Assembly: GCF_029024305.1 (NCBI RefSeq)
Contig: NZ_CP118974.1
Coordinates: 1,705,069 to 1,769,068 of the forward strand
DNA: 64,000 nucleotides
Source of the DNA: Mammaliicoccus vitulinus
GTDB lineage: Bacteria; Bacillota; Bacilli; Staphylococcales; Staphylococcaceae
Direction of reading: 5' to 3'
Shown here: in pieces, positions 1 to 40,277 of the stretch
How the letters are laid out: the number at the start of each line of letters is the position of its first letter
Numbering within the stretch: the first letter of the stretch is position 1
Translations under genes and position numbers: made by a program
The notes under the pieces: generated by a model
Database searches by the model: none
The model's input: the letters and a program-made list of their open reading frames with translations, nothing else
What the model was told of the DNA's origin: nothing

Positions 1-250
1 TGCCCTATGTACAGAAAAAGGCATTACCAGAAGCATGTCCCGTAAGGGAACGCCAGCTGATAATGCCCCAATAGAATGTTTTCATGCCTCTCTAAAGTGT
101 GAAACATTCTACTTAAACAGTGAGCTTAGAAGCTCTAATACCATTGTAATAGATATTGTCGAAAATTACATTGAAAACTATAATAAAGTTAGAATTCAAC
201 AAAAACTAGGCTACTTATCCCCTATAGAATATAGGAAATTAGCAGCCTAG
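1..250 (+). CDS. IS3-family transposase OrfB, C-terminal part (partial)
   Basis: C-terminal end of a DDE transposase that starts left of the window. It has the same sequence as the end of the complete OrfB at 10787-11629 except for one residue (Ile where the other copy has Met, just before the catalytic Glu in ECFHASLK). The visible part covers the last catalytic acidic residue and the end of the integrase-core domain. Nothing in the visible part is broken. Whether this copy is intact upstream cannot be judged. Confidence 0.9.
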   Translation, partial: ALCTEKGITRSMSRKGTPADNAPIECFHASLKCETFYLNSELRSSNTIVIDIVENYIENYNKVRIQQKLGYLSPIEYRKLAA

Positions 251-294
251 AAAATAGTGTTTTTATTGAGCTCCCTTAGTAAGGGTGCAGTGCC
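1..294 (+). mobile_element. IS150-type IS3-family element, right end only (cut by window edge)
   Basis: Bases 1-294 match bases 11380-11673 of the complete IS copy to the right, at a constant offset of 11379, with one substitution seen inside the transposase gene. Similarity ends at the same base in both copies, which fixes the right end of the element. The copy has the same orientation as the complete one, and its left part lies outside the window. The two copies flank the adhesin gene. Confidence 0.93.
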
Positions 295-358
295 AAATTT
301 TCTTATCAGTCCTTTTGTGTTTAAAAATGTTTATCTTTTAGTTAAGATTCTAACTATT
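295..358. other. Short spacer between left IS copy and adhesin stop codon
   Basis: AT-rich spacer. On the minus strand, just after the adhesin stop, there is a weak inverted repeat (AGTTA...TAACT) but no convincing rho-independent terminator. The adhesin gene therefore ends about 65 bases from the IS end. Confidence 0.5.
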
Positions 359-3300
359 TTACTTATCGGTCTTAGAATCTTTTTTCTTTCTTCTAAATGT
401 TAAAATTCCACCAAATAACGCAATAACAGATGCAAATAAAGTTAAGTTTTTATCCTGTTCACCTGTATCTGGCAATTCTTTAGAATCATTCCCATCATTT
501 GATGAATTGTTTCCATTATCTCCTGAGTTGTCGTTTCCACCGTTTGTTGAATCGTCTCCATTATCTCCTGAGTTGTCGTTTCCACCGTTTGTTGAATCGT
601 CTCCATTATCTCCTGAGTTGTCGTTTCCATCGTTTGATGAATCGTCTCCGTTATCTCCTGAGTTGTCGTCATCTTCATCATCGCCTGGATTGTTACCATC
701 ATTTGATGAATCATCTTTTACAATTATAACGAATTTTGTCGTTGTTTCATTGCCTTCACTATCTCTAGTTACAACTGTAACAGTGTATTCACCAGGTTTT
801 GTCGGTGTGCCTGAGATTGTATTTGTTTCTGGATTATATGTTACACCTTCTGGTAAGCCATTTACTTCATGTGTCACTGGTTGACCGCTATTATCTTTAC
901 CATTCAATGTTACATCTTTGATTGGTGTGTTCACTTCTGTTGTTTGATCTTCAATTGGATCTACCGTTGGTGGTAATGTATCTTCAACTGTTATCGTAAA
1001 TGTTGTTTCTGTTGTATTACCTGATTCATCTGTTGAAACTACTGTTACTTCATAACTACCTACCATTGTTGGTGTACCTGAAATAGTATTCGTTTCTGGG
1101 TCATACGTCACACCTTCTGGTAGCCCTGATACTTCATGAGTCACTGGTTTTCCACTATTATCTTTACCATTCAATGTTACATCTTTAATAGGTGTGTTTA
1201 CTTCTGTTGTTTGGTCTTCAACCGGATCCACATCAGGCGCTGTTGTATCTTCTACTGTTATTGTGAATGTTGTTTCTGTTGTATTACCTGATTCATCTGT
1301 TGAAACAACCGTTACATTGTAACTACCTACCATTGTTGGTGTACCTGAAATAGTATTCGTTTCTGGATCATACGTCACACCTTCTGGTAAGCCATTTACT
1401 CCATGTGTGACAGGCTTTCCACTATTATCTTGACCATTCAATGTTACATCTTTAATAGGTGTGTTCACTTCTGTTGTTTGATCTTCAATTGGATCTACCG
1501 TTGGTGGTAATGTATCTTCAACTGTTATCGTAAATGTTGTTTCTGTTGTATTACCTGATTCATCTGTTGAAACTACTGTTACTTCATAACTACCTACCAT
1601 TGTTGGTGTACCTGAAATAGTATTCGTTTCTGGGTCATACGTCACACCTTCTGGTAGCCCTGATACTTCATGAGTCACTGGTTTTCCACTATTATCTTTA
1701 CCATTCAATGTTACATCTTTAATAGGTGTGTTTACTTCTGTTGTTTGGTCTTCAACCGGATCCACATCAGGCGCTGTTGTATCTTCTACTGTTATTGTGA
1801 ATGACGTTTCTGTTGTATTACCTGATTCATCTGTTGAAACAACCGTTACATTGTAACTACCTACCATTGTTGGTGTACCTGAAATAGTATTCGTTTCTGG
1901 ATCATACGTCACACCTTCTGGTAGCCCTGATACTTCATGTGTCACTGGTTGACCGCTATTATCTTTACCATTCAATGTTACATCTTTAATAGGTGTGTTT
2001 ACTTCTGTTGTTTGGTCTTCAACTGGATCCACATCAGGTGCTGTTGTATCTTCTACTGTTATTGTGAATGACGTTTCTGTTGTATTACCAGACTCATCTG
2101 TTGAAATTACTGTTACGTCGTAACTTCCTACTGTTGTCGGTGTGCCTGAAATGGTATTTGTTTCTGGATTATATGTTACACCTTCTGGTAATCCTGACAC
2201 TTCATGAGTCACTGGTTTTCCACTATTATCTTTACCATTCAATGTTACATCTTTAATAGGTGTGTTTACTTCTGTTGTTTGGTCTTCAACCGGATCCACA
2301 TCAGGCGCTGTTGTATCTTCTACTGTTATTGTGAATGACGTTTCTGTTGTATTACCTGATTCATCTGTTGAAACAACCGTTACATTGTAACTACCTACCG
2401 TTGTTGGTGTACCTGAAATAGTATTCGTTTCTGGATCATACGTCACACCTTCTGGTAGCCCTGATACTTCATGTGTCACTGGTTGACCGCTATTATCTTT
2501 ACCATTCAATGTTACATCTTTGATTGGTGTATTTACTTCTGTTGTTTGGTCTTCTACTGGATCTACATCAGGTGCTGTTGTGTCTTCAACAGTGATTGTA
2601 AATGTTGTTTCTGTTGTATTACCAGACTCATCTGTTGAAATTACTGTTACGTCGTAACTTCCTACTGTTGTCGGTGTGCCTGAAATGGTATTCGTTTCTG
2701 GATCATACGTCACACCTTCTGGTAAGCCATTTACTTCATGTGTCACTGGTTGACCGCTATTATCTTGACCATTCAATGTTACATCTTTAATAGGTGTGTT
2801 TACTTCTGTTGTTTGGTCTTCAACCGGATCCACATCAGGCGCTGTCGTATCTTCTACTGTGATCGTAAATGTTGATTCTGTTTCGTTGCCTGCATCATCA
2901 CTCGTTATAACAATCACATTATAGTTTCCTGCTTTTGTTGGTGTACCTGAAATTGTATTCGTTTCTGGATCATACGTCACACCTTCTGGTAGCCCTGATA
3001 CTTCATGAGTCACTGGTTTTCCACTATTATCTTTACCATTCAACGTTACATCTTTAATAGGTGTATTTACTTCTGTTGTTTGGTCTTCTACTGGATCTAC
3101 ATCAGGTGCTGTTGTGTCTTCAACAGTGATTGTAAATGTTGTTTCTGTTGTATTACCAGACTCATCTGTTGAAATTACTGTTACGTCGTAACTTCCTACT
3201 GTTGTCGGTGTGCCTGAAATGGTATTCGTTTCTGGATCATACGTCACACCTTCTGGTAAGCCATTTACTTCATGTGTCACTGGTTGACCGCTATTATCTT

Positions 3301-6300
3301 GACCATTCAATGTTACATCTTTAATAGGTGTGTTTACTTCTGTTGTTTGGTCTTCAACCGGATCCACATCAGGCGCTGTCGTATCTTCTACTGTGATCGT
3401 AAATGTTGATTCTGTTTCGTTGCCTGCATCATCACTCGTTATAACAATCACATTATAGTTTCCTGCTTTTGTTGGTGTACCTGAAATTGTATTCGTTTCT
3501 GGATCATACGTCACACCTTCTGGTAGCCCTGATACTTCATGAGTCACTGGTTTTCCACTATTATCTTTACCATTCAACGTTACATCTTTAATAGGTGTAT
3601 TTACTTCTGTTGTTTGGTCTTCTACTGGATCTACATCAGGTGCTGTTGTGTCTTCAACAGTGATTGTAAATGTTGTTTCTGTTGTATTACCAGACTCATC
3701 TGTTGAAATTACTGTTACGTCGTAACTTCCTACTGTTGTCGGTGTGCCTGAAATGGTATTCGTTTCTGGATCATACGTCACACCTTCTGGTAAGCCATTT
3801 ACTTCATGTGTCACTGGTTGACCGCTATTATCTTGACCATTCAATGTTACATCTTTAATAGGTGTGTTTACTTCTGTTGTTTGGTCTTCAACCGGATCCA
3901 CATCAGGCGCTGTCGTATCTTCTACTGTGATCGTAAATGTTGATTCTGTTTCGTTGCCTGCATCATCACTCGTTATAACAATCACATTATAGTTTCCTGC
4001 TTTTGTTGGTGTACCTGAAATTGTATTCGTTTCTGGATCATACGTCACACCTTCTGGTAGCCCTGATACTTCATGAGTCACTGGTTTTCCACTATTATCT
4101 TTACCATTCAACGTTACATCTTTAATAGGTGTATTTACTTCTGTTGTTTGGTCTTCTACTGGATCTACATCAGGTGCTGTTGTGTCTTCAACAGTGATTG
4201 TAAATGTTGTTTCTGTTGTATTACCAGACTCATCTGTTGAAATTACTGTTACGTCGTAACTTCCTACTGTTGTCGGTGTGCCTGAAATGGTATTCGTTTC
4301 TGGATCATACGTCACACCTTCTGGTAAGCCATTTACTTCATGTGTCACTGGTTGACCGCTATTATCTTGACCATTCAATGTTACATCTTTAATAGGTGTG
4401 TTTACTTCTGTTGTTTGGTCTTCAACCGGATCCACATCAGGCGCTGTCGTATCTTCTACTGTGATCGTAAATGTTGATTCTGTTTCGTTGCCTGCATCAT
4501 CACTCGTTATAACAATCACATTATAGTTTCCTGCTTTTGTTGGTGTACCTGAAATTGTATTCGTTTCTGGATCATACGTCACACCTTCTGGTAGCCCTGA
4601 TACTTCATGAGTCACTGGTTTTCCACTATTATCTTTACCATTCAACGTTACATCTTTAATAGGTGTGTTCACTTCTGTTGTTTGATCTTCAATTGGATCT
4701 ACCGTTGGTGGTAATGTATCTTCAACTGTTATCGTGAATGTTGTTTCTGTTGTATTACCAGACTCATCTGTTGAAATTACTGTTACGTCGTAACTTCCTA
4801 CTGTTGTCGGTGTGCCTGAAATGGTATTCGTTTCTGGATCATACGTCACACCTTCTGGTAAGCCATTTACTTCATGTGTCACTGGTTGACCGCTATTATC
4901 TTGACCATTCAATGTTACATCTTTAATAGGTGTGTTTACTTCTGTTGTTTGGTCTTCAACCGGATCCACATCAGGCGCTGTTGTATCTTCTACTGTTATT
5001 GTGAATGACGTTTCTGTTGTATTACCTGATTCATCTGTTGAAACAACCGTTACATTGTAACTACCTACCATTGTTGGTGTACCTGAAATAGTATTCGTTT
5101 CTGGATCATACGTCACACCTTCTGGTAGCCCTGATACTTCATGTGTCACTGGTTGACCGCTATTATCTTTACCATTCAATGTTACATCTTTAATAGGTGT
5201 GTTTACTTCTGTTGTTTGGTCTTCAACTGGATCCACATCAGGTGCTGTTGTATCTTCTACTGTTATTGTGAATGACGTTTCTGTTGTATTACCAGACTCA
5301 TCTGTTGAAATTACTGTTACGTCGTAACTTCCTACTGTTGTCGGTGTGCCTGAAATGGTATTTGTTTCTGGATTATATGTTACACCTTCTGGTAATCCTG
5401 ACACTTCATGAGTCACTGGTTTTCCACTATTATCTTTACCATTCAATGTTACATCTTTAATAGGTGTGTTTACTTCTGTTGTTTGGTCTTCAACCGGATC
5501 CACATCAGGCGCTGTTGTATCTTCTACTGTTATTGTGAATGACGTTTCTGTTGTATTACCTGATTCATCTGTTGAAACAACCGTTACATTGTAACTACCT
5601 ACCATTGTTGGTGTACCTGAAATAGTATTCGTTTCTGGATCATACGTCACACCTTCTGGTAGCCCTGATACTTCATGTGTCACTGGTTGACCGCTATTAT
5701 CTTTACCATTCAATGTTACATCTTTAATAGGTGTGTTTACTTCTGTTGTTTGGTCTTCAACTGGATCCACATCAGGTGCTGTTGTATCTTCTACTGTTAT
5801 TGTGAATGACGTTTCTGTTGTATTACCAGACTCATCTGTTGAAATTACTGTTACGTCGTAACTTCCTACTGTTGTCGGTGTGCCTGAAATGGTATTTGTT
5901 TCTGGATTATATGTTACACCTTCTGGTAATCCTGACACTTCATGAGTCACTGGTTTTCCACTATTATCTTTACCATTCAATGTTACATCTTTAATAGGTG
6001 TGTTTACTTCTGTTGTTTGGTCTTCAACCGGATCCACATCAGGCGCTGTTGTATCTTCTACTGTTATTGTGAATGACGTTTCTGTTGTATTACCTGATTC
6101 ATCTGTTGAAACAACCGTTACATTGTAACTACCTACCGTTGTTGGTGTACCTGAAATGGTATTTGTTTCTGGATTATATGTTACACCTTCTGGTAGCCCT
6201 GATACTTCATGTGTCACTGGTTGACCGCTATTATCTTTACCATTCAATGTTACATCTTTAATAGGTGTGTTTACTTCTGTTGTTTGGTCTTCAACCGGAT

Positions 6301-9300
6301 CCACATCAGGCGCTGTCGTATCTTCTACTGTGATCGTAAATGTTGATTCTGTTTCGTTGCCTGCATCATCACTCGTTATAACAATCACATTATAGTTTCC
6401 TGCTTTTGTTGGTGTACCTGAAATTGTATTTGTTTCTGGATTATATGTTACACCTTCTGGTAATCCTGACACTTCATGAGTCACTGGTTTTCCACTATTA
6501 TCTTTACCATTCAATGTTACATCTTTGATTGGTGTATTTACTTCTGTTGTTTGGTCTTCTACTGGATCTACATCAGGTGCTGTTGTGTCTTCAACAGTGA
6601 TTGTAAATGTCGTTTCTGTTGTATTACCTGATTCATCTGTTGAAACTACTGTTACTTCATAACTACCTACCATTGTTGGTGTACCTGAAATAGTATTCGT
6701 TTCTGGATCATACGTCACACCTTCTGGTAGCCCTGATACTTCATGTGTCACTGGTTTTCCACTATTATCTTTACCATTCAACGTTACATCTTTAATAGGT
6801 GTGTTCACTTCTGTTGTTTGATCTTCAATTGGATCTACCGTTGGTGGTAATGTATCTTCAACTGTTATCGTGAATGTTGTTTCTGTTGTATTACCAGACT
6901 CATCTGTTGAAATTACTGTTACGTCGTAACTACCTATCATTGTTGGTGTACCTGAGATTGTATTCGTTTCTGGATCATACGTCACACCTTCTGGTAAGCC
7001 ATTTACTCCATGTGTGACAGGCTTTCCACTATTATCTTTACCATTCAATGTTACATCTTTGATTGGTGTATTTACTTCTGTTGTTTGGTCTTCTACTGGA
7101 TCTACATCAGGTGCTGTTGTGTCTTCAACAGTGATTGTAAATGTTGTTTCTGTTGTATTACCAGACTCATCTGTTGAAATTACTGTTACGTCGTAACTTC
7201 CTACTGTTGTCGGTGTGCCTGAAATGGTATTCGTTTCTGGATCATACGTCACACCTTCTGGTAAGCCATTTACTTCATGTGTCACTGGTTGACCGCTATT
7301 ATCTTGACCATTCAATGTTACATCTTTAATAGGTGTGTTTACTTCTGTTGTTTGGTCTTCAACCGGATCCACATCAGGCGCTGTCGTATCTTCTACTGTG
7401 ATCGTAAATGTTGATTCTGTTTCGTTGCCTGCATCATCACTCGTTATAACAATCACATTATAGTTTCCTGCTTTTGTTGGTGTACCTGAAATTGTATTTG
7501 TTTCTTCATTGTAAGTCACACCGTCTGGTAAACCAGTTACATTATGAGTCACTGCATCTCCACTGTTGTCTTTACCGTTTAAAGTAACATCAGTTATTGG
7601 TGTGTTCACCTCAGTTGTTTGATCTTCAATTGGATCTACCGTTGGTGCTGTTGTATCTTCTACTGTGATTGTAAATGTCGTTTCTATTTCGTTATATACT
7701 TTATCTGACGAAATAACAGTTACTTCATATGTTCCTGCTTTTGTTGGTGTACCTGAAATTGTATTCGTTTCAGAATTATATGTGACACCATCTGGTAGTC
7801 CGTATACGTCATTTCGAACTGTTTCACCACTATTATCATTCGCATTGATAACAATCGGATCTATTGCCGAATTTACCTCTGTTGTTTGATTATTAACTTT
7901 ATCAACAACTGGTGGAGTTGTGTCATCAACAATTACACCTGATGAGTTATTACTTGAAGGTTTGCTTTTTCCTATTTTAGATTGGCTACTTCCAGTGGCA
8001 GCATTGCTTGCACTTAATTGTATTGTACCTTCTATAAAAGTTTCAGGCACAAAAGGTTTACTTGTTTCAGAATTCACTACGATTAAGTATGTACTATTAG
8101 TATTTCCTAAATCTATACTAATAGTACCGTCACTATTAAAGATTATATTATGTGATGATGATACATCTACATAAGCGACATTCTTATCACTTCCACTTTG
8201 ATTCAATGTATTCCTATCAGTAACTTTCAAAATTTGAACTTTAGTAATATCTTTATTAAATTGGCTAATTACATCAGGATTCTTTTTAGTACCATTATAT
8301 GGAGTTATTTTAACCTTGGCATTATTTAAAGTTCTAGCTTTTCCGTTTACTGTATAAGTTGTGTTATATGGATTATGATCATCAACTTTTTCTTGAACAC
8401 TTGAATCTTGATATAAATCTAAATTTCGTGCATCAGTTGAATATTCAATTTTTCTTGTAGCATTATATTCTGAATCACCAATTTTTAAATTCAAGTTATA
8501 GTTATCTGTTTTAGTTGCTTCTTTAAAATTGATTAAACCTAGGAAATCAACATGTGCACTATTGTTTTTATATTTTTCTACATTATCTGTAAACTTGAAA
8601 GTAAATGAATTATCGGAGCGATTATAAGTACCTTTTGCATAAATACTATTTGCATCATTTCCTAATAGTATGCCATTATCTCTATCTGCTGATGTTGGAT
8701 TAATCTCTTTAGGTATATGTACAGTAAAATAGTCATTTCTTTTCACATCATTTGGAATGGAAATATCAAAACCTATTTCAAAAGCAGCACCCTTTTTCCA
8801 AGTACCATCTTGAAACTTAACATTACTAGATTTAATCTTGCTATTTACATCATCTCCACCCAATGGACTACCATCAGCTTTTGTTGCTTCTTTTTCCACT
8901 TTTGATGAAGATGCACTTAAAGCTTTTAAATTTTTATCAGTCTTACTTTTATTTTTTGATTTCTGGTCTATATCTTCTTTTTCTTTATCTGTTAATGGCT
9001 TAGTTGTTTTTAAGTCTGTAGCATCAACATTTGGGTCTATTTTGTTATCATTTTCAGAGTCACCTGTAGACAAACCATTGCCAACATTATCAGATTGATT
9101 ATTATTATTTAATGGTTCCCCTGTTGATGGTTCTTCTATTGTGTCTTCTTCAGTTGATTTCGGTTTTTCTGTTGTGTCTTTTTTATTTTCATTAGAATCT
9201 TCATTCGTTGAATTTTCATCAGTTTTTGCATCTTCTTTTGATGAGTTCTTGTCGTCAGCTTTTGGTTGTTCTTTTATTGAGTCTTTATCACTTTTTTGTT

Positions 9301-10189
9301 CTTCAGAAGGATTCTTCAATTGATCTGCGTCAGCTTCTTTTGAGTCTTCTGAAGATTTTTTGTCATCTGTTTTTGGTTCTTCTGTTGTATCTTCTTCAGT
9401 TGATTTTGGTTCCTCTGTTGTATCACTTTTATCTTCTTTAGGATCTTCACTTTTTGAATTTCCATCTGATTTTTGTTCATCTGATGTTGGCACTTCAGTC
9501 GTATCTTCTTCAGTTGATTTCGAGTCATCGTTTGTTTGTGGTTCCTCTGTTGATGGTTTTTCAGCTTCTTCTACATTAATGGTAAAAGTAGACTCTTTTT
9601 GAACGCCTGAATCATTTTTAGAAGTAACTGTGATCATATAGTTACCAGGAGTATTAGGGGTGCCTGAAATTGTATCAGTATTTGAATCATATGTAAGGCC
9701 ATCTGGTAATCCTCGGACTTCATTTGTATTATTCTCAGAACCTTCCACATTAATCCTTATTGGATTAATTGCGTCTTCTGAATTCACAGTTTGATTATCA
9801 ATTTGTTCAATAGTAAAATCACTTTGTTCTTTTGGTTCTGCTGTCGTATTATCTCCTGAAGCATTTGAATCTGATGTATTTTCTTCTGTTGTTGAATCTT
9901 CTGCTGTTTCTGTAGAATCATTTGTTTTCTCTTCAGTTGGCAAATTCTCAGTCGATTCTTCAGTTGGTATTTCAACTGAATTTGGTACTTCAGTTTCATT
10001 TGATGTTTCTATATTCTTATTTGAATCTGTATTTGTAGTCGTTTCTGTACTCTGACTTTCTTCTTTTAATGCATTTGATTCTTCTGCATTTACGATATTA
10101 GGTGTACTCAAATAAAGCATTGCACCAATGATTACTGACCCAGTTCCAACAGAAAATTTGCGAATAGAATATCTGTTATTTTTAAACAT
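359..10189 (-). CDS. Giant LPXTG cell-wall-anchored adhesin with YSIRK signal and 27 tandem Ig-like repeats
   Basis: A 3276-residue surface protein that should be secreted at the septum and joined to peptidoglycan by sortase A. Residues 1-35 are a YSIRK/GS-type signal peptide (YSIRK at 7-11, probable cleavage after NIVNA). Residues about 124-207 form one putative-Ig (He_PIG-like) domain, followed by a long acidic Ser/Thr/Lys-rich linker to about 440. Residues about 450-755 resemble the N2-N3 ligand-binding region of Clf/Sdr/Bbp-type MSCRAMMs (inferred from segment character, not an alignment). Residues 756-3158 are 27 modules of exactly 89 residues, each with GLPxGVTY and ETNTISGTP motifs. 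A DNSGD-rich wall-spanning stretch follows, then LPDTG at 3239-3243, a hydrophobic segment and a basic tail. The ATG at 10189 has a GAGAGGAAG ribosome site. The ligand is unknown. It lies between two IS copies, suggesting mobility. Confidence 0.95.
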   Translation of the reverse strand: MFKNNRYSIRKFSVGTGSVIIGAMLYLSTPNIVNAEESNALKEESQSTETTTNTDSNKNIETSNETEVPNSVEIPTEESTENLPTEEKTNDSTETAEDSTTEENTSDSNASGDNTTAEPKEQSDFTIEQIDNQTVNSEDAINPIRINVEGSENNTNEVRGLPDGLTYDSNTDTISGTPNTPGNYMITVTSKNDSGVQKESTFTINVEEAEKPSTEEPQTNDDSKSTEEDTTEVPTSDEQKSDGNSKSEDPKEDKSDTTEEPKSTEEDTTEEPKTDDKKSSEDSKEADADQLKNPSEEQKSDKDSIKEQPKADDKNSSKEDAKTDENSTNEDSNENKKDTTEKPKSTEEDTIEEPSTGEPLNNNNQSDNVGNGLSTGDSENDNKIDPNVDATDLKTTKPLTDKEKEDIDQKSKNKSKTDKNLKALSASSSKVEKEATKADGSPLGGDDVNSKIKSSNVKFQDGTWKKGAAFEIGFDISIPNDVKRNDYFTVHIPKEINPTSADRDNGILLGNDANSIYAKGTYNRSDNSFTFKFTDNVEKYKNNSAHVDFLGLINFKEATKTDNYNLNLKIGDSEYNATRKIEYSTDARNLDLYQDSSVQEKVDDHNPYNTTYTVNGKARTLNNAKVKITPYNGTKKNPDVISQFNKDITKVQILKVTDRNTLNQSGSDKNVAYVDVSSSHNIIFNSDGTISIDLGNTNSTYLIVVNSETSKPFVPETFIEGTIQLSASNAATGSSQSKIGKSKPSSNNSSGVIVDDTTPPVVDKVNNQTTEVNSAIDPIVINANDNSGETVRNDVYGLPDGVTYNSETNTISGTPTKAGTYEVTVISSDKVYNEIETTFTITVEDTTAPTVDPIEDQTTEVNTPITDVTLNGKDNSGDAVTHNVTGLPDGVTYNEETNTISGTPTKAGNYNVIVITSDDAGNETESTFTITVEDTTAPDVDPVEDQTTEVNTPIKDVTLNGQDNSGQPVTHEVNGLPEGVTYDPETNTISGTPTTVGSYDVTVISTDESGNTTETTFTITVEDTTAPDVDPVEDQTTEVNTPIKDVTLNGKDNSGKPVTHGVNGLPEGVTYDPETNTISGTPTMIGSYDVTVISTDESGNTTETTFTITVEDTLPPTVDPIEDQTTEVNTPIKDVTLNGKDNSGKPVTHEVSGLPEGVTYDPETNTISGTPTMVGSYEVTVVSTDESGNTTETTFTITVEDTTAPDVDPVEDQTTEVNTPIKDVTLNGKDNSGKPVTHEVSGLPEGVTYNPETNTISGTPTKAGNYNVIVITSDDAGNETESTFTITVEDTTAPDVDPVEDQTTEVNTPIKDVTLNGKDNSGQPVTHEVSGLPEGVTYNPETNTISGTPTTVGSYNVTVVSTDESGNTTETSFTITVEDTTAPDVDPVEDQTTEVNTPIKDVTLNGKDNSGKPVTHEVSGLPEGVTYNPETNTISGTPTTVGSYDVTVISTDESGNTTETSFTITVEDTTAPDVDPVEDQTTEVNTPIKDVTLNGKDNSGQPVTHEVSGLPEGVTYDPETNTISGTPTMVGSYNVTVVSTDESGNTTETSFTITVEDTTAPDVDPVEDQTTEVNTPIKDVTLNGKDNSGKPVTHEVSGLPEGVTYNPETNTISGTPTTVGSYDVTVISTDESGNTTETSFTITVEDTTAPDVDPVEDQTTEVNTPIKDVTLNGKDNSGQPVTHEVSGLPEGVTYDPETNTISGTPTMVGSYNVTVVSTDESGNTTETSFTITVEDTTAPDVDPVEDQTTEVNTPIKDVTLNGQDNSGQPVTHEVNGLPEGVTYDPETNTISGTPTTVGSYDVTVISTDESGNTTETTFTITVEDTLPPTVDPIEDQTTEVNTPIKDVTLNGKDNSGKPVTHEVSGLPEGVTYDPETNTISGTPTKAGNYNVIVITSDDAGNETESTFTITVEDTTAPDVDPVEDQTTEVNTPIKDVTLNGQDNSGQPVTHEVNGLPEGVTYDPETNTISGTPTTVGSYDVTVISTDESGNTTETTFTITVEDTTAPDVDPVEDQTTEVNTPIKDVTLNGKDNSGKPVTHEVSGLPEGVTYDPETNTISGTPTKAGNYNVIVITSDDAGNETESTFTITVEDTTAPDVDPVEDQTTEVNTPIKDVTLNGQDNSGQPVTHEVNGLPEGVTYDPETNTISGTPTTVGSYDVTVISTDESGNTTETTFTITVEDTTAPDVDPVEDQTTEVNTPIKDVTLNGKDNSGKPVTHEVSGLPEGVTYDPETNTISGTPTKAGNYNVIVITSDDAGNETESTFTITVEDTTAPDVDPVEDQTTEVNTPIKDVTLNGQDNSGQPVTHEVNGLPEGVTYDPETNTISGTPTTVGSYDVTVISTDESGNTTETTFTITVEDTTAPDVDPVEDQTTEVNTPIKDVTLNGKDNSGKPVTHEVSGLPEGVTYDPETNTISGTPTKAGNYNVIVITSDDAGNETESTFTITVEDTTAPDVDPVEDQTTEVNTPIKDVTLNGQDNSGQPVTHEVNGLPEGVTYDPETNTISGTPTTVGSYDVTVISTDESGNTTETTFTITVEDTTAPDVDPVEDQTTEVNTPIKDVTLNGKDNSGQPVTHEVSGLPEGVTYDPETNTISGTPTTVGSYNVTVVSTDESGNTTETSFTITVEDTTAPDVDPVEDQTTEVNTPIKDVTLNGKDNSGKPVTHEVSGLPEGVTYNPETNTISGTPTTVGSYDVTVISTDESGNTTETSFTITVEDTTAPDVDPVEDQTTEVNTPIKDVTLNGKDNSGQPVTHEVSGLPEGVTYDPETNTISGTPTMVGSYNVTVVSTDESGNTTETSFTITVEDTTAPDVDPVEDQTTEVNTPIKDVTLNGKDNSGKPVTHEVSGLPEGVTYDPETNTISGTPTMVGSYEVTVVSTDESGNTTETTFTITVEDTLPPTVDPIEDQTTEVNTPIKDVTLNGQDNSGKPVTHGVNGLPEGVTYDPETNTISGTPTMVGSYNVTVVSTDESGNTTETTFTITVEDTTAPDVDPVEDQTTEVNTPIKDVTLNGKDNSGKPVTHEVSGLPEGVTYDPETNTISGTPTMVGSYEVTVVSTDESGNTTETTFTITVEDTLPPTVDPIEDQTTEVNTPIKDVTLNGKDNSGQPVTHEVNGLPEGVTYNPETNTISGTPTKPGEYTVTVVTRDSEGNETTTKFVIIVKDDSSNDGNNPGDDEDDDNSGDNGDDSSNDGNDNSGDNGDDSTNGGNDNSGDNGDDSTNGGNDNSGDNGNNSSNDGNDSKELPDTGEQDKNLTLFASVIALFGGILTFRRKKKDSKTDK
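713..7924 (-). repeat. 27 tandem 267-bp coding repeats with 534-bp higher-order units
   Basis: The region is exactly 27 x 267 bp plus the first codon of the next segment and encodes the 89-residue modules of the adhesin. Most modules differ at only a few positions; the two at the protein N-terminal end (about 7391-7924) and the last one are more divergent. Two module types alternate (one with KAGNYNVIVITSDDAGN, one with TVGSYDVTVISTDESGN), which makes 534-bp double units that are nearly identical from about 2530 to 4680. A second family of near-identical units sits near 2068, 5272 and 5806. Confidence 0.97.
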
Positions 10190-10214
10190 TAAATACTTCC
10201 TCTCATATTTTGGA

Positions 10215-10243
10215 TATAATAATAATTAGCATAATAGTAACAA
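10215..10243 (-). promoter_or_regulatory. Possible sigma-A promoter of the adhesin gene
   Basis: On the minus strand a TTGTTA box (10243-10238) is followed after 17 bases by ATTATA (10220-10215), about 25 bases upstream of the adhesin start codon. The whole region 10190-10401 is very AT-rich, so chance matches are likely. Confidence 0.3.
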
Positions 10244-10487
10244 AAAAAATAAGATGTGAATATACTTTTTTTGTAAATTCGAAATTATTACATAGATAAC
10301 ATTTAAATATTAGCAATTTTAAAAACAAAAAAATTTTATTTATTAAACTTTTCATTAATCAAAATTTTATTCTTAAAATCAAAAAGCCAACGAACCCCTT
10401 TTGCGCTAACCCCATGATGTGGGAGTAAAATAAAAACACTTTCGTTGAATTCATATTAAAATGAATTTATACGGAGGTGTTTTTTCT

Positions 10488-10802
10488 ATGAAAAGAGTGG
10501 CATATTCAGTTGAAACAAAATATAAAGTAGTAGAAATGAAACTTAAAGGATATAGTACAAGAGAAATAATGGATGCTTTAAATATTAAAAATGAATCTCA
10601 AGTTAAAGTGTGGTGGAAATGGTATAGAAATGGGGAAACACATAGATTCAATCAACAAGTAGGTAAACAATATTCCTACGGAAAAGGAAATGAAGAATTG
10701 AGTACTGTTGAGACGCTAAAAATTGAATTAAAGCGCAAAGAAGTAGAAAATGAAATTTTAAAAAAGTACAAGGAATTGGAAAGGAAGTGGTCCCAGAGGT
10801 AG
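10488..10802 (+). CDS. IS3-family transposase OrfA (helix-turn-helix)
   Basis: DNA-binding subunit of the transposase, about 104 residues from the ATG at 10488, which has a GGAGGTG ribosome site 8 bases upstream; an in-frame ATG at 10461 has no such site. Residues about 5-45 look like the helix-turn-helix of IS150/IS3 OrfA proteins, followed by a Lys/Glu-rich heptad region that probably dimerises. Near its end the gene carries the heptamer A AAA AAG (10760-10766) in the right phase for a -1 shift, so part of the product should continue into OrfB as OrfAB. OrfA alone typically inhibits transposition in this family. Confidence 0.88.
   Translation: MKRVAYSVETKYKVVEMKLKGYSTREIMDALNIKNESQVKVWWKWYRNGETHRFNQQVGKQYSYGKGNEELSTVETLKIELKRKEVENEILKKYKELERKWSQR
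10760..10766 (+). promoter_or_regulatory. -1 ribosomal frameshift signal (A AAA AAG) for OrfAB
   Basis: The OrfA reading frame contains codons AAA and AAG at 10761-10766, preceded by A. Slipping back one base moves ribosomes into the OrfB frame, which is open from here through the GTG at 10787 and on to the OrfB stop. This is the usual way IS3 elements make the active fused transposase. Confidence 0.8.
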
Positions 10803-11629
10803 TTGTTGAATTAGTAAATGAATTGAAATCTAAATATACAGTGAAAGTCATTTTAGAAACTTTAGATATTCCAAAATCAAATTATTACAGATGGAAAAAC
10901 AAAGATTTCAGTATATCTGAGGATGAACGAGAAATTATAGAACTATGTAAGAAACATCGTTTTACATATGGTTATAGAAAAATAACTGCCTTGTTAAATA
11001 GAAAAAATAATAAACCAATTAATCACAAAAAAGTACAAAGGATTATGCAAAAACATAATTTAAATTGTAAAGTACGAATGAAAAAATCGAAAAGACCAGG
11101 GAATGCATATTATAAAACACATAATCTATTAAATAGAAACTTCAAAGCAGAGAAACCTTTAGAAGTACTTTTAACAGATATCACTTATTTACCCTTCGGG
11201 AATACAATGTTGTATCTTTCATCTATCATGGATGCTTACAATGGTGAAATTGTGGCATATAAAATCGGTAATAAACAAAATCAAGAATTAGTAAATGAGA
11301 CATTAAAACAACTTCAATTGGAACCAGGTACTATATTACATAGTGATCAAGGAAGTGTGTATACTTCTTATGAATACTATGCCCTATGTACAGAAAAAGG
11401 CATTACCAGAAGCATGTCCCGTAAGGGAACGCCAGCTGATAATGCCCCAATGGAATGTTTTCATGCCTCTCTAAAGTGTGAAACATTCTACTTAAACAGT
11501 GAGCTTAGAAGCTCTAATACCATTGTAATAGATATTGTCGAAAATTACATTGAAAACTATAATAAAGTTAGAATTCAACAAAAACTAGGCTACTTATCCC
11601 CTATAGAATATAGGAAATTAGCAGCCTAG
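10787..11629 (+). CDS. IS3-family transposase OrfB (DDE integrase core)
   Basis: Catalytic transposase of about 280 residues in the -1 frame relative to OrfA; the GTG at 10787 is the first possible start, but the main product is probably the frameshifted OrfAB. It has an HTH_21-like N-terminal part (TYGYRKITALLNR) and an rve integrase core with the DDE triad visible as LTDITYLP, LHSDQGS and ECFHASLK. The C-terminal end (NYNKVRIQQKLGYLSP) is typical of the family. No stop codon or frameshift breaks it, so the element may still move. Confidence 0.93.
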   Translation: MVPEVVVELVNELKSKYTVKVILETLDIPKSNYYRWKNKDFSISEDEREIIELCKKHRFTYGYRKITALLNRKNNKPINHKKVQRIMQKHNLNCKVRMKKSKRPGNAYYKTHNLLNRNFKAEKPLEVLLTDITYLPFGNTMLYLSSIMDAYNGEIVAYKIGNKQNQELVNETLKQLQLEPGTILHSDQGSVYTSYEYYALCTEKGITRSMSRKGTPADNAPMECFHASLKCETFYLNSELRSSNTIVIDIVENYIENYNKVRIQQKLGYLSPIEYRKLAA

Positions 11630-14600
11630 AAAATAGTGTTTTTATTGAGCTCCCTTAGTAAGGGTGCAGTGCCGAATTTACCTGCACGTTGTTTTGTTCT
11701 GTCATATTTGTCTATTACACCTTTTACTTGTTCTTCAAAAGGATACTTGCTTATGCTAGGCTCATAATCTTTACTTGCTATTTCTTGATTAGATTTAACC
11801 ATTTCAGCTAATAAAGCGATTTGTTGTTGTTGACCTTCAATCATTTTGAGTAATAAAGCTGTATCATCACTACCACTATTATTAGTCTTAGGTGTTTTCA
11901 ATTGGTTAGGTCGTTTGTTTTTACCTTTTTGAATATCTTGTCCTGCTAATGCTAATAATTTCATAGCATCAGTTCGACGTTTAGGGTCTGTAGGGATAAC
12001 ATATTCAGGGAAACCACCTTCAGCAAGATTGTACATACCTTTTTGGTTGATAAGTCCACCAGTAGCATATGCACGATCTGCTGAACGTTTGAAAGCACCG
12101 TTAAATCCGTAATGTGGTGTATATTTTTTGTTGATGTAATTCAATACAGCTGTAGCTTGGTCTACAGGATTTTTATAGTTACCATGTCCTTTAGTTTTGT
12201 AAGCATCAAATGTTGTTTTAATCATCTGGAACATACCACGTGATGGATTACCTGCCATTGCGTTACTATCCCAATTGTTGATTGAGTTGACGTCATAATT
12301 ACTTTCACGTTTTGCTAATCTCATCATTTGTTCTGTTACATAACCGGATTTAAACTTACCGCCCATGATATTTTGTGCGCTCTTAATAATACTTCGTGCT
12401 GCGCCACTGCCACTGCCGTGATTACCTCCACCACTTCCTTTTAGGAATTTAAGTGGGTCGATTGTATTACTATTAGAAATACTTGGCGTTGGCCCTTTCT
12501 CAACTTGGTAATGTACGTGTGGTCCCCATGTATAAGCGCCACTATTACCTGTTTCTGCGAACTTCTCACCTTTTTTAACAGGACCAGTTTTAAGAATTTT
12601 AGATAAGTGTAAGAAGTATTGTGCAAACTTACCGTTTACCAATCTTGCAACTAATCCACCACCATGGTCATGTTGTCTTGAAACCGTACCTTTTGTCGGT
12701 GCCTCTAATGGCGTTCCAATTGGTGTTGCATAGTCACGTCCCCAATGTCGTCCACCGTTGTATGGATATCCGGGTAATGGTTTGTTAGGACTGTAGCCAA
12801 CCGTTTCTTTAAATTTCATAAATGAACTTCCGTCGCCACCGCCGCTATCTTCTAACCAACCACCGAATAAATCAGATACGCCGCCTTGTAATTTCTTGTA
12901 TGCTGCTTTCATTAATCCGCCTAAAATATCACCTTTAGCAAAGTCGAAGTTAACTCCGAATTTAGACAATACTTTGTTTACTAATTTTCCGGGATTACTT
13001 GCCCAATCATATATATCTTTACCGAACGCGAAAGCCTCGCCTGCTTTATCGCCTGCGTAACTTAATGCCTCGCCCGTTTTCTTCTTGGCGTATTTTTTAC
13101 CACCGTCAATTGTTGCTTTCGCGCCTGCTTTAACTTCTTTCTTTTTCTGCTTGGCTTTTGCTTTTCCACTTTCAACACCTAAACCAATTTTAACTAATCC
13201 GTCTGTGACCGTACCAAGTTTAAAACGTGGCAATGTTCCTGTACTAAATCTAGGCATAGGCGCTTGTTGTGCTTGTAACGCATTATATGTTGCCGTACCG
13301 TTATGCACTCTTGCATTTTTAGGTAACATGACTTCCGTATCTTTGCTAGGTGTCATTGCAAATTTACCGTTAGGGTATTCAATCATTTCATTTCTGAAAC
13401 CACCTGGACCATTGCCACGACCTCTGTCGCCTACAATAGCGCGTGTTGGTTGTTTTAATCGTCCATCTGATGTTGTTTTAACTTGTCTGTTGATTGTTTG
13501 TGTATGTGTTGTACCTGTTGATAGTTTGAATTTCGGTAATTTATCCATACCAATTTTACCTGCTACCCAGTTAACACCTTCAATTAGTTTATTCAAACCT
13601 TTTTTAACAGAAGTAACCATACCGTTAATATGCGATTTAATTTTCCCTATAATACCTTTCAATCCGTCACGCATACCTCGGAAAGTTCCGCCAACTTTTT
13701 TCCAAATATTTGATGCAATGCCTGTTACGGAAGATGAAATTTCACGCCATTTATTGACCATACTATTTTTGACATTTGTGAATATCGTTCTAATTGATTT
13801 GTACATACCTGTGAATCTATTGCGTACATTATTCCACAAGTTTTGAGCCGTCTTAGTAATTGCGTTCTTTAAATTAGTCCAAAGATTACGAGCGAATTTA
13901 GATAAACTATTAAAAATAGATCGTGTAGATTTGTATAATCCATTAAATTTATTCTTGATATTTTTCCATAAATTACTCGCTGTTTTAGTAATCGCATTCT
14001 TTAAATTGTTCCAAACAGTTTTACTGAATTTAGATACATTGTTAAAAATAGATTTAACTGACTTATACAATCCGTTAAATTTAGATTTTACGTTCGTCCA
14101 AATACTTATTGCAAGTTTCACAATAGATTTTTTAATTGACGACCAAATAACCCGAATATATTTAGAAACACTACTAAATATTGCACGAATTGATCTATAC
14201 AATTGATTGAATTTTAATCTCACTTGTTTATAAATATAGTTTACAGATGCAAAGAATATTGATTTAACAGTCGCCCACATTTTTGAGAAGTAGCCTTTTA
14301 TGTTAGAACTAAACCCACGTATTAACGCTATTATTTGACCGACAAGTGACGTTCTAATAAATCCAACTACAATCTTAATTGCACCTCTGAAAATTTGCTT
14401 AATGCCCGACCACATTAATTTAAAATCTCCAGTGAATATAACTGAAAACACTTTAATAACACCGATAATAATATCGAGCGCACCAGAAATAATTTGTTTA
14501 ATCCCTTGCCAACTATTTTTTACAATTATTTTTAAAGCAGGCATTATCCAATTGATAAATTGATAAACTTTCGTGAACACAACTTTTATAACTGTATAAA

Positions 14601-17205
14601 TACTATTCACTACAGAAGTATTGTTGCCAACTGATTTTTTAAAACTGTTACTAATTTGAGCCCATGCTGTAGAAAGTTGGTTGGATACTTGAGTGCCAAA
14701 TGCTTTTAACGCATTAAACGCAATAAAAAAGTTAGTCTTAACTGCGTTAGCAAAATTAGTCAATCCTACAACAACGTTAGGTGGTAAAATTTTAGATAAT
14801 GTTATTACACCATCTTGACCATTTCCTTGAAATAATTGGAAGAAACCCTTCACAATAGTAGCGACATTACTAAATGTATTTTTAACGCTTTCTAAAGCCC
14901 TATTCACTGTATTTCTGAACGTTTCTGATTTCTTATACGCTAATACAAAACCTCCGACTAAGGCGGCGATTGCAAGACCCCACGGTCCTAATAGTAATCT
15001 AAAGGCACCGCGTAACACACCTAAAGCTTTACTCATAAAGCCTACTTTTCCACCAGAGGCTACTGCTGCACCTCCTAGTCCACCAAAAACAGTACGTGCT
15101 AAAGCGATTGGTGGTACTAATGCCATTAATCCACCTACAATTGCAGATAGAATACCAATGAACGCGCCTACTGCAGGGCTTGAGTTTACTATTTTAGAAA
15201 TAAATCCAGTGATCGATGTTGTTACTCTCAACATTATTGCACCGATAGGCGCCATACCTTGTACTAATCCTACTAATATAGAACCAATATTTTTTAGTAA
15301 TTGCCAAACTATCGGACCATTCGTATTTAAATAATCAATAAACGCTTTAAACTTATCAGAACTTGAAAGGCTTTGACCCCATTCTTTAAATGTTTTAGTA
15401 ACGTTCTGCATGCCAATTAAAACGGTATGTGAATGACCACTAAACGCTTTAATTAATCCAATAATCCCACCGAATATATTGCCGAATATCGCACCTACAA
15501 TAGGTAAATTCGTTTTCGTGTACTGTATGAATTTAGCAGTACTTGAATCTGTACTTGCACTGTTCGCCCATTTACTAAATTTAGTTGCTAAACTTTCAAT
15601 ACCTGTACCTACCCATGTAAATAACGGTGCGAACTGTACAAACATATGTGCTAGTCCGTCTGTTACTTTCATAATAGCGTTAACTAAATTTTGGAATATA
15701 GGTGGCGCAGTTGAATTAATAACAGTGAATACTTGATTAGCGTTCTTACTGTTTTGTACCCACTCAAACATTTTGAGTGTTGCTTTACTGATGATACCTG
15801 AAATACTATCTATCGCAGGTGTTAATCTTTGTAACGAAAGAATGGCTATTCTAATACCATTTGTTATCGTATTGAATATGTTTGCTTGGTTTCTGTCAGC
15901 TAATCCGTTCCATGTATTTTTAAGCGATTCTAAAGCACCTTGATACCTTGTAACTTCTCCAGTGATTTTAAGCGTTCCATCTTCTAAACGTTTCAATGAA
16001 GATGCAGCCATTCCAGCAAATATTGAAACACCACCGAGAGCCGTACCATATACGCCTGCTAGACCTATAGCGCCACCACCTGCAGCAACTGCAGCACCAC
16101 CAATACCGGCAACGGCACTTGTAGCAGCACCAGCAACCGGAATAATTGTAGATATATTCTGAATAAGAATGCCGTTAATAACACCTTGTGCGACATATCC
16201 GACATTTCTGAAGCTATCGCCGATTTTATTGATCTTAGCATTAACAGCTTGCCAACGTTCATCAAATGATTTTATACCAAGTGACATTTTACCGAAGAAT
16301 GTTTGTTGTCTATTCAATTCTTTTAATTCATCAGTTGTTTCATCAATACGATTTTGAAGTACGTTATAAGCAAGTGCTTGTTCGTATACTTCTTTTTCAG
16401 CTTTATCTAGTTTAGAAGGAAGTTCTCCTACTTCTCTATTTAGCTTTGCATAACTTCTTTCTGCACTGTCTGCTTGTTTCTTAGCTTCGGACATTGCAGT
16501 TTTAGCGCTTGCCATCGCTTCTTTATTCGCATTGCTGAAATTTTCTAACTCATTTTTTGCACTCGCAGTCGCTGCTTTAGATTCGTTTAAATCACGTGTT
16601 GCTCCATCTAGTGAAGTAGATAGCTTTTTATATTCTCTTTCTGCACGTCCTATTTCAAAAGTGAGGTCTGATATTTCTCCTGCATTTCCAGCAGTATCTT
16701 TTTCTAATTCTTTTAATTCATTACTTAAACTATCTAATGAACTTTTAGCATTTTTAGTTTTAGCACTTAATGCTGTTACCGTATTTTGCATTTGTTTTTG
16801 CGCATCTTGAGCAGACTTCACATTCGCTTTATGCTCTTTCAACACTTTGTTAATATCTTCATATTCATTAGTAAGACGTTCATGTTTCTGTTTCACTTTG
16901 TCTGCTTCAATACCTGCTTTTTTAAGCGATTCTGTCGTTTTATCTTGTGCGCCTTTTAACTTATCCAACTTTTCTTTTGATTTATCTACGGCTCTTGCTT
17001 GTTGTGTCATAGATTTATTCAAGCCATCTAATTGTGTCTCGAACTTATCAACTGATTTTTCAACTTTATTGAATGTAGATAAATTTGCTTTCATTTGTGC
17101 ATCAGCTGTTTTTAACTTACGTTGAAGATTAGCCATGCCTCTGTCAACATCGGATGTATCTATTCCGAGATCAATTGTAAAGCCATCAATATGTTCTCCT
17201 GCCAT
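11626..17205 (-). CDS. Phage tail tape measure protein with M23 peptidase and SLT domains, C-terminus replaced by IS sequence
   Basis: Tail length ruler of 1859 residues that also degrades the cell wall during DNA entry. Residues 1-310 are long coiled coils; hydrophobic stretches follow near 330-410 and 640-740; repeated Trp/Asn/Lys-rich helical segments lie near 900-1200. An M23 metallopeptidase lies near 1480-1575, with zinc ligands His1487, Asp1491 and the HVH at 1563-1565. A lysozyme-like SLT domain spans about 1610-1690 with catalytic Glu1634 in RESNY. Residues 1-1844 are phage; the last 15 and the stop come from the IS, so the natural end is lost. The ATG at 17205 has an AGGAGG site. 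Most of the protein is present, but function of the shortened form is uncertain. Confidence 0.93.
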   Translation of the reverse strand: MAGEHIDGFTIDLGIDTSDVDRGMANLQRKLKTADAQMKANLSTFNKVEKSVDKFETQLDGLNKSMTQQARAVDKSKEKLDKLKGAQDKTTESLKKAGIEADKVKQKHERLTNEYEDINKVLKEHKANVKSAQDAQKQMQNTVTALSAKTKNAKSSLDSLSNELKELEKDTAGNAGEISDLTFEIGRAEREYKKLSTSLDGATRDLNESKAATASAKNELENFSNANKEAMASAKTAMSEAKKQADSAERSYAKLNREVGELPSKLDKAEKEVYEQALAYNVLQNRIDETTDELKELNRQQTFFGKMSLGIKSFDERWQAVNAKINKIGDSFRNVGYVAQGVINGILIQNISTIIPVAGAATSAVAGIGGAAVAAGGGAIGLAGVYGTALGGVSIFAGMAASSLKRLEDGTLKITGEVTRYQGALESLKNTWNGLADRNQANIFNTITNGIRIAILSLQRLTPAIDSISGIISKATLKMFEWVQNSKNANQVFTVINSTAPPIFQNLVNAIMKVTDGLAHMFVQFAPLFTWVGTGIESLATKFSKWANSASTDSSTAKFIQYTKTNLPIVGAIFGNIFGGIIGLIKAFSGHSHTVLIGMQNVTKTFKEWGQSLSSSDKFKAFIDYLNTNGPIVWQLLKNIGSILVGLVQGMAPIGAIMLRVTTSITGFISKIVNSSPAVGAFIGILSAIVGGLMALVPPIALARTVFGGLGGAAVASGGKVGFMSKALGVLRGAFRLLLGPWGLAIAALVGGFVLAYKKSETFRNTVNRALESVKNTFSNVATIVKGFFQLFQGNGQDGVITLSKILPPNVVVGLTNFANAVKTNFFIAFNALKAFGTQVSNQLSTAWAQISNSFKKSVGNNTSVVNSIYTVIKVVFTKVYQFINWIMPALKIIVKNSWQGIKQIISGALDIIIGVIKVFSVIFTGDFKLMWSGIKQIFRGAIKIVVGFIRTSLVGQIIALIRGFSSNIKGYFSKMWATVKSIFFASVNYIYKQVRLKFNQLYRSIRAIFSSVSKYIRVIWSSIKKSIVKLAISIWTNVKSKFNGLYKSVKSIFNNVSKFSKTVWNNLKNAITKTASNLWKNIKNKFNGLYKSTRSIFNSLSKFARNLWTNLKNAITKTAQNLWNNVRNRFTGMYKSIRTIFTNVKNSMVNKWREISSSVTGIASNIWKKVGGTFRGMRDGLKGIIGKIKSHINGMVTSVKKGLNKLIEGVNWVAGKIGMDKLPKFKLSTGTTHTQTINRQVKTTSDGRLKQPTRAIVGDRGRGNGPGGFRNEMIEYPNGKFAMTPSKDTEVMLPKNARVHNGTATYNALQAQQAPMPRFSTGTLPRFKLGTVTDGLVKIGLGVESGKAKAKQKKKEVKAGAKATIDGGKKYAKKKTGEALSYAGDKAGEAFAFGKDIYDWASNPGKLVNKVLSKFGVNFDFAKGDILGGLMKAAYKKLQGGVSDLFGGWLEDSGGGDGSSFMKFKETVGYSPNKPLPGYPYNGGRHWGRDYATPIGTPLEAPTKGTVSRQHDHGGGLVARLVNGKFAQYFLHLSKILKTGPVKKGEKFAETGNSGAYTWGPHVHYQVEKGPTPSISNSNTIDPLKFLKGSGGGNHGSGSGAARSIIKSAQNIMGGKFKSGYVTEQMMRLAKRESNYDVNSINNWDSNAMAGNPSRGMFQMIKTTFDAYKTKGHGNYKNPVDQATAVLNYINKKYTPHYGFNGAFKRSADRAYATGGLINQKGMYNLAEGGFPEYVIPTDPKRRTDAMKLLALAGQDIQKGKNKRPNQLKTPKTNNSGSDDTALLLKMIEGQQQQIALLAEMVKSNQEIASKDYEPSISKYPFEEQVKGVIDKYDRTKQRAGKFGTAPLLRELNKNTIF

Positions 17206-39047: not shown

Positions 39048-40079
39048 ATGACAGTAACAAAAAGGAAAGAGCGTGGCACATGGCAATACGCTTTTGGACA
39101 TGAAGGTAAGACTTATAGAAAAAGTGGATTTACAACTAAACGTGAAGCAGTAGAAGCAGAAACAAAAGCTAAGAATGATTTATTAGACGGGTTTCAGTTT
39201 GATAACAATATTACATTGTTCGATTATTTCAAAGAATGGTCAGAAACATATAAAAAACCTGTTGTAAGTGAAAAAACTTATGTGTCCTATACTACTATCA
39301 TGAATCATTTGGAAAAGGCATCTATCGGTAAGATAACACTAAAAGATATTACCAAAGTTAAATATCAAAAGTTTATAAATAAGTTTGCTAAAACTCACAC
39401 AGATGAGTCTGTAAGAAAATTAAACGGTAAAATAAGAAGTTCTATAGATGATGCTATATATGAAGGAATACTTAAAAAGAACTTCACATACAAAATAAAG
39501 TATGTTGGTAAAAATGAAGCACAGCAAGAAGATGATAAATATATCACATTAAAACAATATTCAGATCTAAAGAAAGAATTGAAAACAAAATATACCGATT
39601 CATCACTAGTTCTATTTGTTATGGTCGTTACGGGTTGTAGAATATCTGGTGCTATCAATTTGAAATATGAATATATAGATAGGTTTAAAAGAACGATTTA
39701 TATCAATGAGCAAAAAACAACCACTTCACCTAGAACAGTAGAAGTATCTAAAGAAGATATGGACCATATTTTAAAAGTATTGGAGCAAAGACCTGCTACA
39801 ATGGACGGTTTTGTATTTAGTAATGGTATAAGTACTAACGCAGTAAACAAGGCTTTAAAAGGTTATTGTGAACGATTAGGCATTAAACAAATTACAACGC
39901 ACGCCATCAGACATACTCATTGTTCTTATTTATTATCTAAAGATGTATCTATACATTATATTTCTAAGAGATTAGGTCACAAAAATATTAAAGTGACATT
40001 AGAGGTTTATTCACACTTACTAGAAGAAAGTTTTGAAGAAGAGAATAAGAAAGCAGTTGAAGCTTTGAAAGTTTTATAG
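39048..40079 (+). CDS. int: Tyrosine integrase
   Basis: 343 residues. An arm-binding domain (RGTWQYAFGHEGKTYRKSGF) and a SAM-like core-binding domain precede the catalytic domain with Arg in VVTGCRISGAINLKYEY, the HAIRHTHCSYLL box, LGHKNIKVTLEVYSHL and the nucleophile Tyr. It inserts phage DNA at the neighbouring tRNA-Arg gene and is transcribed toward it. It appears intact. Confidence 0.95.
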   Translation: MTVTKRKERGTWQYAFGHEGKTYRKSGFTTKREAVEAETKAKNDLLDGFQFDNNITLFDYFKEWSETYKKPVVSEKTYVSYTTIMNHLEKASIGKITLKDITKVKYQKFINKFAKTHTDESVRKLNGKIRSSIDDAIYEGILKKNFTYKIKYVGKNEAQQEDDKYITLKQYSDLKKELKTKYTDSSLVLFVMVVTGCRISGAINLKYEYIDRFKRTIYINEQKTTTSPRTVEVSKEDMDHILKVLEQRPATMDGFVFSNGISTNAVNKALKGYCERLGIKQITTHAIRHTHCSYLLSKDVSIHYISKRLGHKNIKVTLEVYSHLLEESFEEENKKAVEALKVL

Positions 40080-40112: not shown

Positions 40113-40148
40113 TACCGAATATAACGAGGTATATCTATATACAAAGAA

Positions 40149-40203
40149 ATCCCGTCATATCAAGGTTTTTAACCACGAGATACAACGGGATATTGGTAAT
40201 TTA
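40149..40203. other. Prophage-chromosome junction (att region)
   Basis: Sequence between integrase arm sites and the tRNA 3' end. It holds an inverted repeat ATCCCGT / ACGGGAT (40149-40155, 40185-40191) and a run AAGGTTTTTAACC. The att core probably overlaps the tRNA 3' part, but the other att copy is not in the window, so the exact core cannot be set. Confidence 0.5.

Positions 40204-40277
<74 letters not shown>

Follow-up and report, generated by a model that had tools for sequence, protein, structure and literature searches.

The 9.8-kb gene for a giant surface adhesin of Mammaliicoccus vitulinus is carried, inside a prophage, by a block of 12,651 bp which begins and ends with directly repeated copies of the same insertion sequence (IS). 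The block was analyzed starting from a window of 64,000 nucleotides (nt; G000:C1:1705069-1769068, G000:C1 being the contig that holds the window), in a genome of 2.65 Mb made up of two contigs. An IS pair bounds the passenger, the site is intact once the block is removed, and the unit is found elsewhere with the same junctions. The interpretation of the block as an IS-bounded mobile unit, having the anatomy of a composite transposon and entered by either of the two routes discussed below, is given a probability of about 0.9.

Structure of the block and of its insertion site

A preliminary description of the window had noticed the same IS, in the same orientation, at both ends of the adhesin gene. 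This is correct, both copies being complete and differing at a single base over 1272 bp (A at window position 73, G at 11452). The left IS is a 100% match to three solo copies in the same genome, and the private base belongs to the right IS. The label IS150-type was examined at the level of the IS3 family, to which the element belongs: OrfA has a helix-turn-helix and OrfB an rve core, the two frames overlap, a -1 slip site (A_AAA_AAG) is found at window position 10760 in the orfA frame, and OrfB of the right IS scores 279.8 bits with NF033516 (cut-off 160). The IS is numbered from a leading T, found before the conserved end in the composite and in all the 21 solo copies described below; a 1271-bp IS with a 5-bp duplication was replaced by 1272 bp and 4 bp once more copies were aligned. 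A diverged copy, truncated at the left and 97% identical, resides at G000:C1:2211667, and shows that the presence of the IS in this genome goes further back.

The tetramer GAAT is found at both outer flanks of the IS pair, while the inner flanks, AAAT and CTTT, are unmatched. A duplication present at the outer ends, and absent between the inner ones, is what is expected of a composite transposon. Stronger evidence than the 4-bp match is provided by the empty site. If the flanks are joined and one GAAT is kept, the tape-measure frame of the phage ends with ...AGKFRPAY and a stop codon, and is followed by GGAGG and by a Dit frame open throughout. Near its ribosome-binding site the Dit frame lacks an ATG, GTG or TTG, and an ATT start is suggested. 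The right IS had been described as ending inside a phage gene; the gene is the tape measure, yet the truncation is minimal, only the last four codons and the stop being displaced in a gene that is otherwise almost whole. From the window it had been predicted that the missing 3' end of the tape measure, and a duplication of 3-4 bases matching those from position 11674 onward, lie to the left. The duplication is the 4-bp GAAT at the far outer end; the missing 3' end stands just left of the left IS and is followed by further genes of this prophage, for Dit, tail and endolysin, not by unrelated chromosomal DNA, the outcome named as contrary to a composite transposon. The outer GAAT pair and the restored empty site support the early proposal of a possible composite transposon that entered the prophage.

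The end of the tape measure and the start of Dit can both be matched in 8 of 19 related prophage loci; in all 8 the two genes are neighbours, and 27-136 nt separate the matched parts. Genes for portal, terminase, capsid, tail, endolysin and integrase are present in the prophage, whose attachment repeats are ~54.8 kb apart. Without the block it measures ~42 kb, similar to the nearest phage record, Staphylococcus virus IME1354_01 (42.7 kb). The block separates Dit from the tape measure by 12.7 kb and makes the prophage ~30% longer; a phage carrying it would hardly be packaged.

The adhesin could also be phage cargo serving lysogenic conversion, like the prophage-borne gene sasX, the IS copies having arrived later on each side; its position between the attachment repeats of a prophage, at a tRNA-Arg gene, fits this view. 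The view is very improbable, since one duplication is common to the outer ends and none is found at the inner ends, two phage genes are restored when the block is removed, the adhesin is absent at the site in all 8 testable related prophages, and the unit is found also on a plasmid and in a circular record. A comparison of the adhesin head with 50,697 phage records gave two weak matches at 25.9% identity and no near relative, and none was confirmed in viral contigs. Absence from the 8 testable loci and lack of a near phage relative led to the rejection of the adhesin as a phage moron. A gene labelled 'antiadhesin' in the Staphylococcus pseudintermedius phage MK075004.1 (2048-2839) is a distant match to the adhesin head (25.9% identity).

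A further explanation involves no mobile unit: two IS insertions would be unrelated, and a chance deletion or rearrangement between them would have brought phage and adhesin together, IS elements being a common cause of such events. It fails to predict the outer duplication, the intact empty site and the identical inner junctions found in two other species; it was rejected on these grounds, and we consider it hardly credible.

The unit in other records

Out of 72,556 plasmid records, five contain related DNA and two the IS-adhesin unit. A search for the adhesin with and without flanking IS had been proposed in the preliminary description: the same IS-adhesin junctions occur in these two records, and the relatives lacking this IS, found in S. 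casei, S. equorum and S. condimenti plasmid records, are adhesins only 67-71% alike across one third of the query. Transposases are not among the genes shown near these three adhesins in the PLSDB gene table, which is incomplete; the S. condimenti record has a recombinase gene ~2.3 kb from the adhesin. In the S. casei plasmid the related adhesin (1741-7491) is annotated as two adjacent genes, and is perhaps a broken copy.

In the 100-kb plasmid pNW26-2 of M. sciuri both inner junctions are as in the window; the right IS is full length except for a 1-bp indel, while 186 bp of the left IS remain. The same inner junctions are found in pMP8659_2 of Macrococcus psychrotolerans CCM 8659, a record of 10,375 bp deposited as circular. 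Its parts are the passenger, a single IS of 1272 bp and 65 bp from the left end of a second IS; as they fill the entire record, no space is left for a replication gene. The adhesin frame is unbroken through the record origin and spans 2,920 amino acids (aa). The 65-bp IS end (2980-3044) terminates in GAAT directly before the full IS, as if an IS had landed inside another and used the tetramer of the prophage site. The CCM 8659 genome was obtained by Trycycler long-read assembly and polishing, and the word 'adhesin' is absent from the main text of the paper describing it (PMC12016501).

The IS is more widespread than the adhesin. The latter is an accessory gene, as its DNA was detected in one of 108 genomes of the family, the source genome itself. 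The IS or its relatives reside in 26 of the 108 genomes (E <= 1e-50), and four of the eight genomes examined in the genus have copies with 94% identity or more; a Macrococcoides caseolyticum plasmid carries the IS (99.6%) without the adhesin. In collections from which records near the source genome may be excluded, the N-terminal 745 aa of the adhesin gave no confirmed match among genome and viral contigs, the exact 30-base left junction had 0 matches in the same contigs, and the exact 22-mer of the empty site 0 matches in viral contigs. No account of this IS-bounded adhesin unit was found among the literature matches listed, in a search covering titles and abstract openings.

Variation among the three copies

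The passengers of the three units are nearly identical at their ends. Each of the other two copies differs from the window at 3 positions in the right-hand outer 1242 bp; at the left end there are no differences over 420 bp from the circular record, and none over the first 335 bp from M. sciuri. In the neighbouring 1200 bp beside the repeats (window 7960-9159), which include the ligand-binding region, 53-54 differences were counted, corresponding to 54/57 and 53/56 of all those scored for the two alleles. A uniform 2.3% divergence of the passenger was rejected, as differences fall mostly within this 1.2-kb stretch. Between the window and M. sciuri 39 codon changes are silent and 12 nonsilent. 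The number of repeats also varies, being 27 in the window, and 23 and 10 in the other two copies, at a constant spacing of 89 aa. The clustering of the differences suggests that alleles were replaced around the ligand-binding region, and recent spread of the unit, the middle part being replaced via recombination, would be the simplest reading.

Target sites and route of entry

Empty sites were rebuilt for 21 solo IS copies and folded with RNA parameters. Values are compared to those of 3000 random 44-base stretches, drawn from this genome only, while 18 sites come from other genomes. Solo copies at least 94% identical are eight, distributed in four genomes, and seven of them feature their own exact 4-bp duplication in the same register; a 4-bp duplication flanks 7 of 13 more distant copies (~75% identical). 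Six of the eight near-identical copies (L010, L011, L041, L042, L043 and L067) occupy the loops of strong hairpins that resemble terminators, with energies of -20.9 kcal/mol or lower, a stability found in 0/3000 random stretches. For four of the 13 distant copies the hairpin reaches -17 or stronger, as do at most 0.1% of random stretches; one of these four, L054, has no duplication. The composite's own site is a moderate case, its value of -11.2 being reached by 2.2% of random stretches. Counter to the pattern are L012 (-6.3, 15% of random) and L068 (-2.4, no duplication), both near-identical copies, and nine of the 13 distant ones. The IS thus shows a marked target preference, being often found in terminator-like hairpin loops. 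Another IS, IS1272 of Staphylococcus aureus, is known to replace inverted repeats.

By the proposed mechanism the unit landed in a small hairpin where the tape-measure gene of a resident prophage ends (3' end), and GAAT was duplicated; the IS transposase, made by OrfA and OrfB joined through -1 frameshifting, would move it. We lean slightly towards a one-step event, in which the two outermost IS ends are used together. Entry may also have taken place in two steps, a solo IS landing first at the hairpin between tape measure and Dit, and a circle made of one IS and the adhesin recombining with it later. The deposition of a circle of this make-up (pMP8659_2) keeps this route fully alive; the frequent residence of the IS in hairpin loops, of which the site is a moderate example, and the identity of the left IS to three solo chromosomal copies fit it as well. 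It requires two events rather than one, nothing in the sequence contradicts it, and its chances may be put at a little less than even.

Several observations weigh against the interpretation of the block as a mobile unit. No transposition was observed, and the structure equally fits a circle recombining with a resident IS, both routes leading to the same product. A 4-bp match is modest evidence taken alone, because chance would produce one in ~0.6% of cases at this base composition. The duplication is absent, in the register used, in one of the eight near-identical and six of the 13 distant solo copies. In pNW26-2 the truncated left IS leaves the outer duplication unassessable, and the pMP8659_2 circle could be a tandem array or a product of assembly. 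In 11 of the 19 related prophage loci the tape measure was matched and Dit was not, in the short stretch examined; a different tail module or an insertion are possible there, and these loci count neither for nor against the empty site.

The adhesin and other features of the region

The adhesin is the sole recognised passenger gene of the block. PF05345 matches 28 stretches of the protein, which correspond to the repeat array and to one domain near the N terminus. The ligand-binding region (305 aa) matches crystal chains of ClfB, SdrE, SdrG and ClfA, the best E value (1.8e-11) being obtained with ClfB. All the matches, 13 distinct sequences, are chains of microbial surface components recognizing adhesive matrix molecules (MSCRAMMs), in a comparison set that did not include Bap. 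The N2-N3 region of these proteins is thus recognised at the sequence level only; the YSIRK signal and the LPXTG anchor are both present. The serine-aspartate stalk typical of the Sdr subfamily was not found, its place being taken by the 27 He_PIG repeats. The protein is classed, from its sequence, as MSCRAMM-like and as neither SdrD nor ClfB, because scores with the NCBIfam models of both are far under the cut-offs. It would sit on the cell wall via sortase, and the MSCRAMM-like head, raised on Ig-like repeats, would bind a host or matrix ligand. Coordinates are given in Table 1.

The second contig of the genome, 4,440 bp long, is a tet(K) plasmid with identical counterparts in Mammaliicoccus vitulinus and some staphylococci; of 665 plasmid records that match it, 138 reach at least 99% identity at their best place.

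Table 1. Position of the IS-adhesin block and of related prophage features (a slash marks the IS-passenger boundary)
Feature	Window position	Strand	Description
Left IS, right-hand part	1..294	+	complete copy at G000:C1:1704091-1705362, 1272 bp, IS3 family
Passenger segment between IS copies	295..10401		inner junctions GTGCC/AAATTTTC and CCCCTTT/TGCGC
Giant adhesin gene	359..10189	-	3276 aa; YSIRK signal, ligand-binding region, 27 Ig-like repeats of 89 aa, LPDTG anchor
He_PIG repeat array	713..7954	-	267-bp (89 aa) spacing; PF05345; 27 motif copies
MSCRAMM-type N2-N3-like ligand-binding region	8066..8860	-	~aa 444-708; PF17961 Big_8
Right IS	10402..11673	+	1272 bp, IS3 family
Right IS orfA	10461..10802	+	helix-turn-helix, PF13518
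Right IS orfB	10787..11629	+	rve integrase core, PF00665; -1 frame relative to orfA
Phage tape-measure gene	11626..17205	-	last native codons displaced; frame now terminates inside IS
Target duplication GAAT, right copy	11674..11677		left copy at G000:C1:1704087-1704090, outside window
Prophage integrase	39048..40079	+	phrog_1
Right attachment repeat, imperfect	40138..40220		overlaps tRNA-Arg 3' end; partner at G000:C1:1690492-1690575

Significance and comparison with known systems

The junctions shared by a prophage, a large plasmid and a circular record, in three species of two genera, indicate that the ability to attach may spread by means of an IS. The related alleles lend themselves to studying the changes that an adhesin rich in repeats undergoes from one hop to the next, and the preference for hairpin loops offers a reason why the IS flanks genes, or lands between members of an operon, with little damage to coding sequences. 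A wider picture, which we hold as tentative and on balance doubtful, is that of an IS-bounded adhesin cassette which circulates in two or more genera, on plasmids, in prophages and in chromosomes, and in part as a circle without a replicon, favouring terminator hairpins and diversifying its head and its number of repeats between stops. If true, this would be an evolving mobile module for surface adhesion, having an IS as vehicle instead of a phage or an island.

IS-bounded transposons are known chiefly as carriers of drug resistance, and drug resistance is the passenger in the staphylococcal composite transposons Tn4001 (IS256) and Tn4003 (IS257). The block resembles these elements in having a passenger between two IS copies, a duplication at the outer ends only, and both plasmid and chromosomal locations; it differs because the passenger is a single 9.8-kb adhesin gene, and the flanking IS belongs to the IS3 family. 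The pMP8659_2 circle, made by one IS and the passenger, recalls the translocatable units of IS26 and IS257. In contrast to these, the IS is of the IS3 rather than the IS6 family, and the circle has an extra 65-bp IS end.

Large LPXTG surface proteins residing on mobile elements are known in Staphylococcus aureus, bap being carried by SaPIbov2 and sasX by a prophage. Yet bap and sasX are the cargo of an island and of a phage, whereas here the vehicle is the IS pair, and the phage a landing site only. The adhesin shares the YSIRK signal, the N2-N3-like region and the LPXTG anchor with ClfB, SdrD, SdrE and SdrG, and differs from them in having a stalk of Ig-like He_PIG domains in place of SD repeats.

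The targeting of palindromes is known in the IS3 family from IS1397, ISKpn1 and ISPsy8, which, as the IS described here, insert in potential hairpins; their targets are repetitive extragenic palindromic (REP) sequences, while the targets found here resemble transcription terminators (PMC1525189). As a composite transposon, the block is an element of a known kind; unusual are the giant adhesin as lone passenger and the three contexts in which the unit is found.

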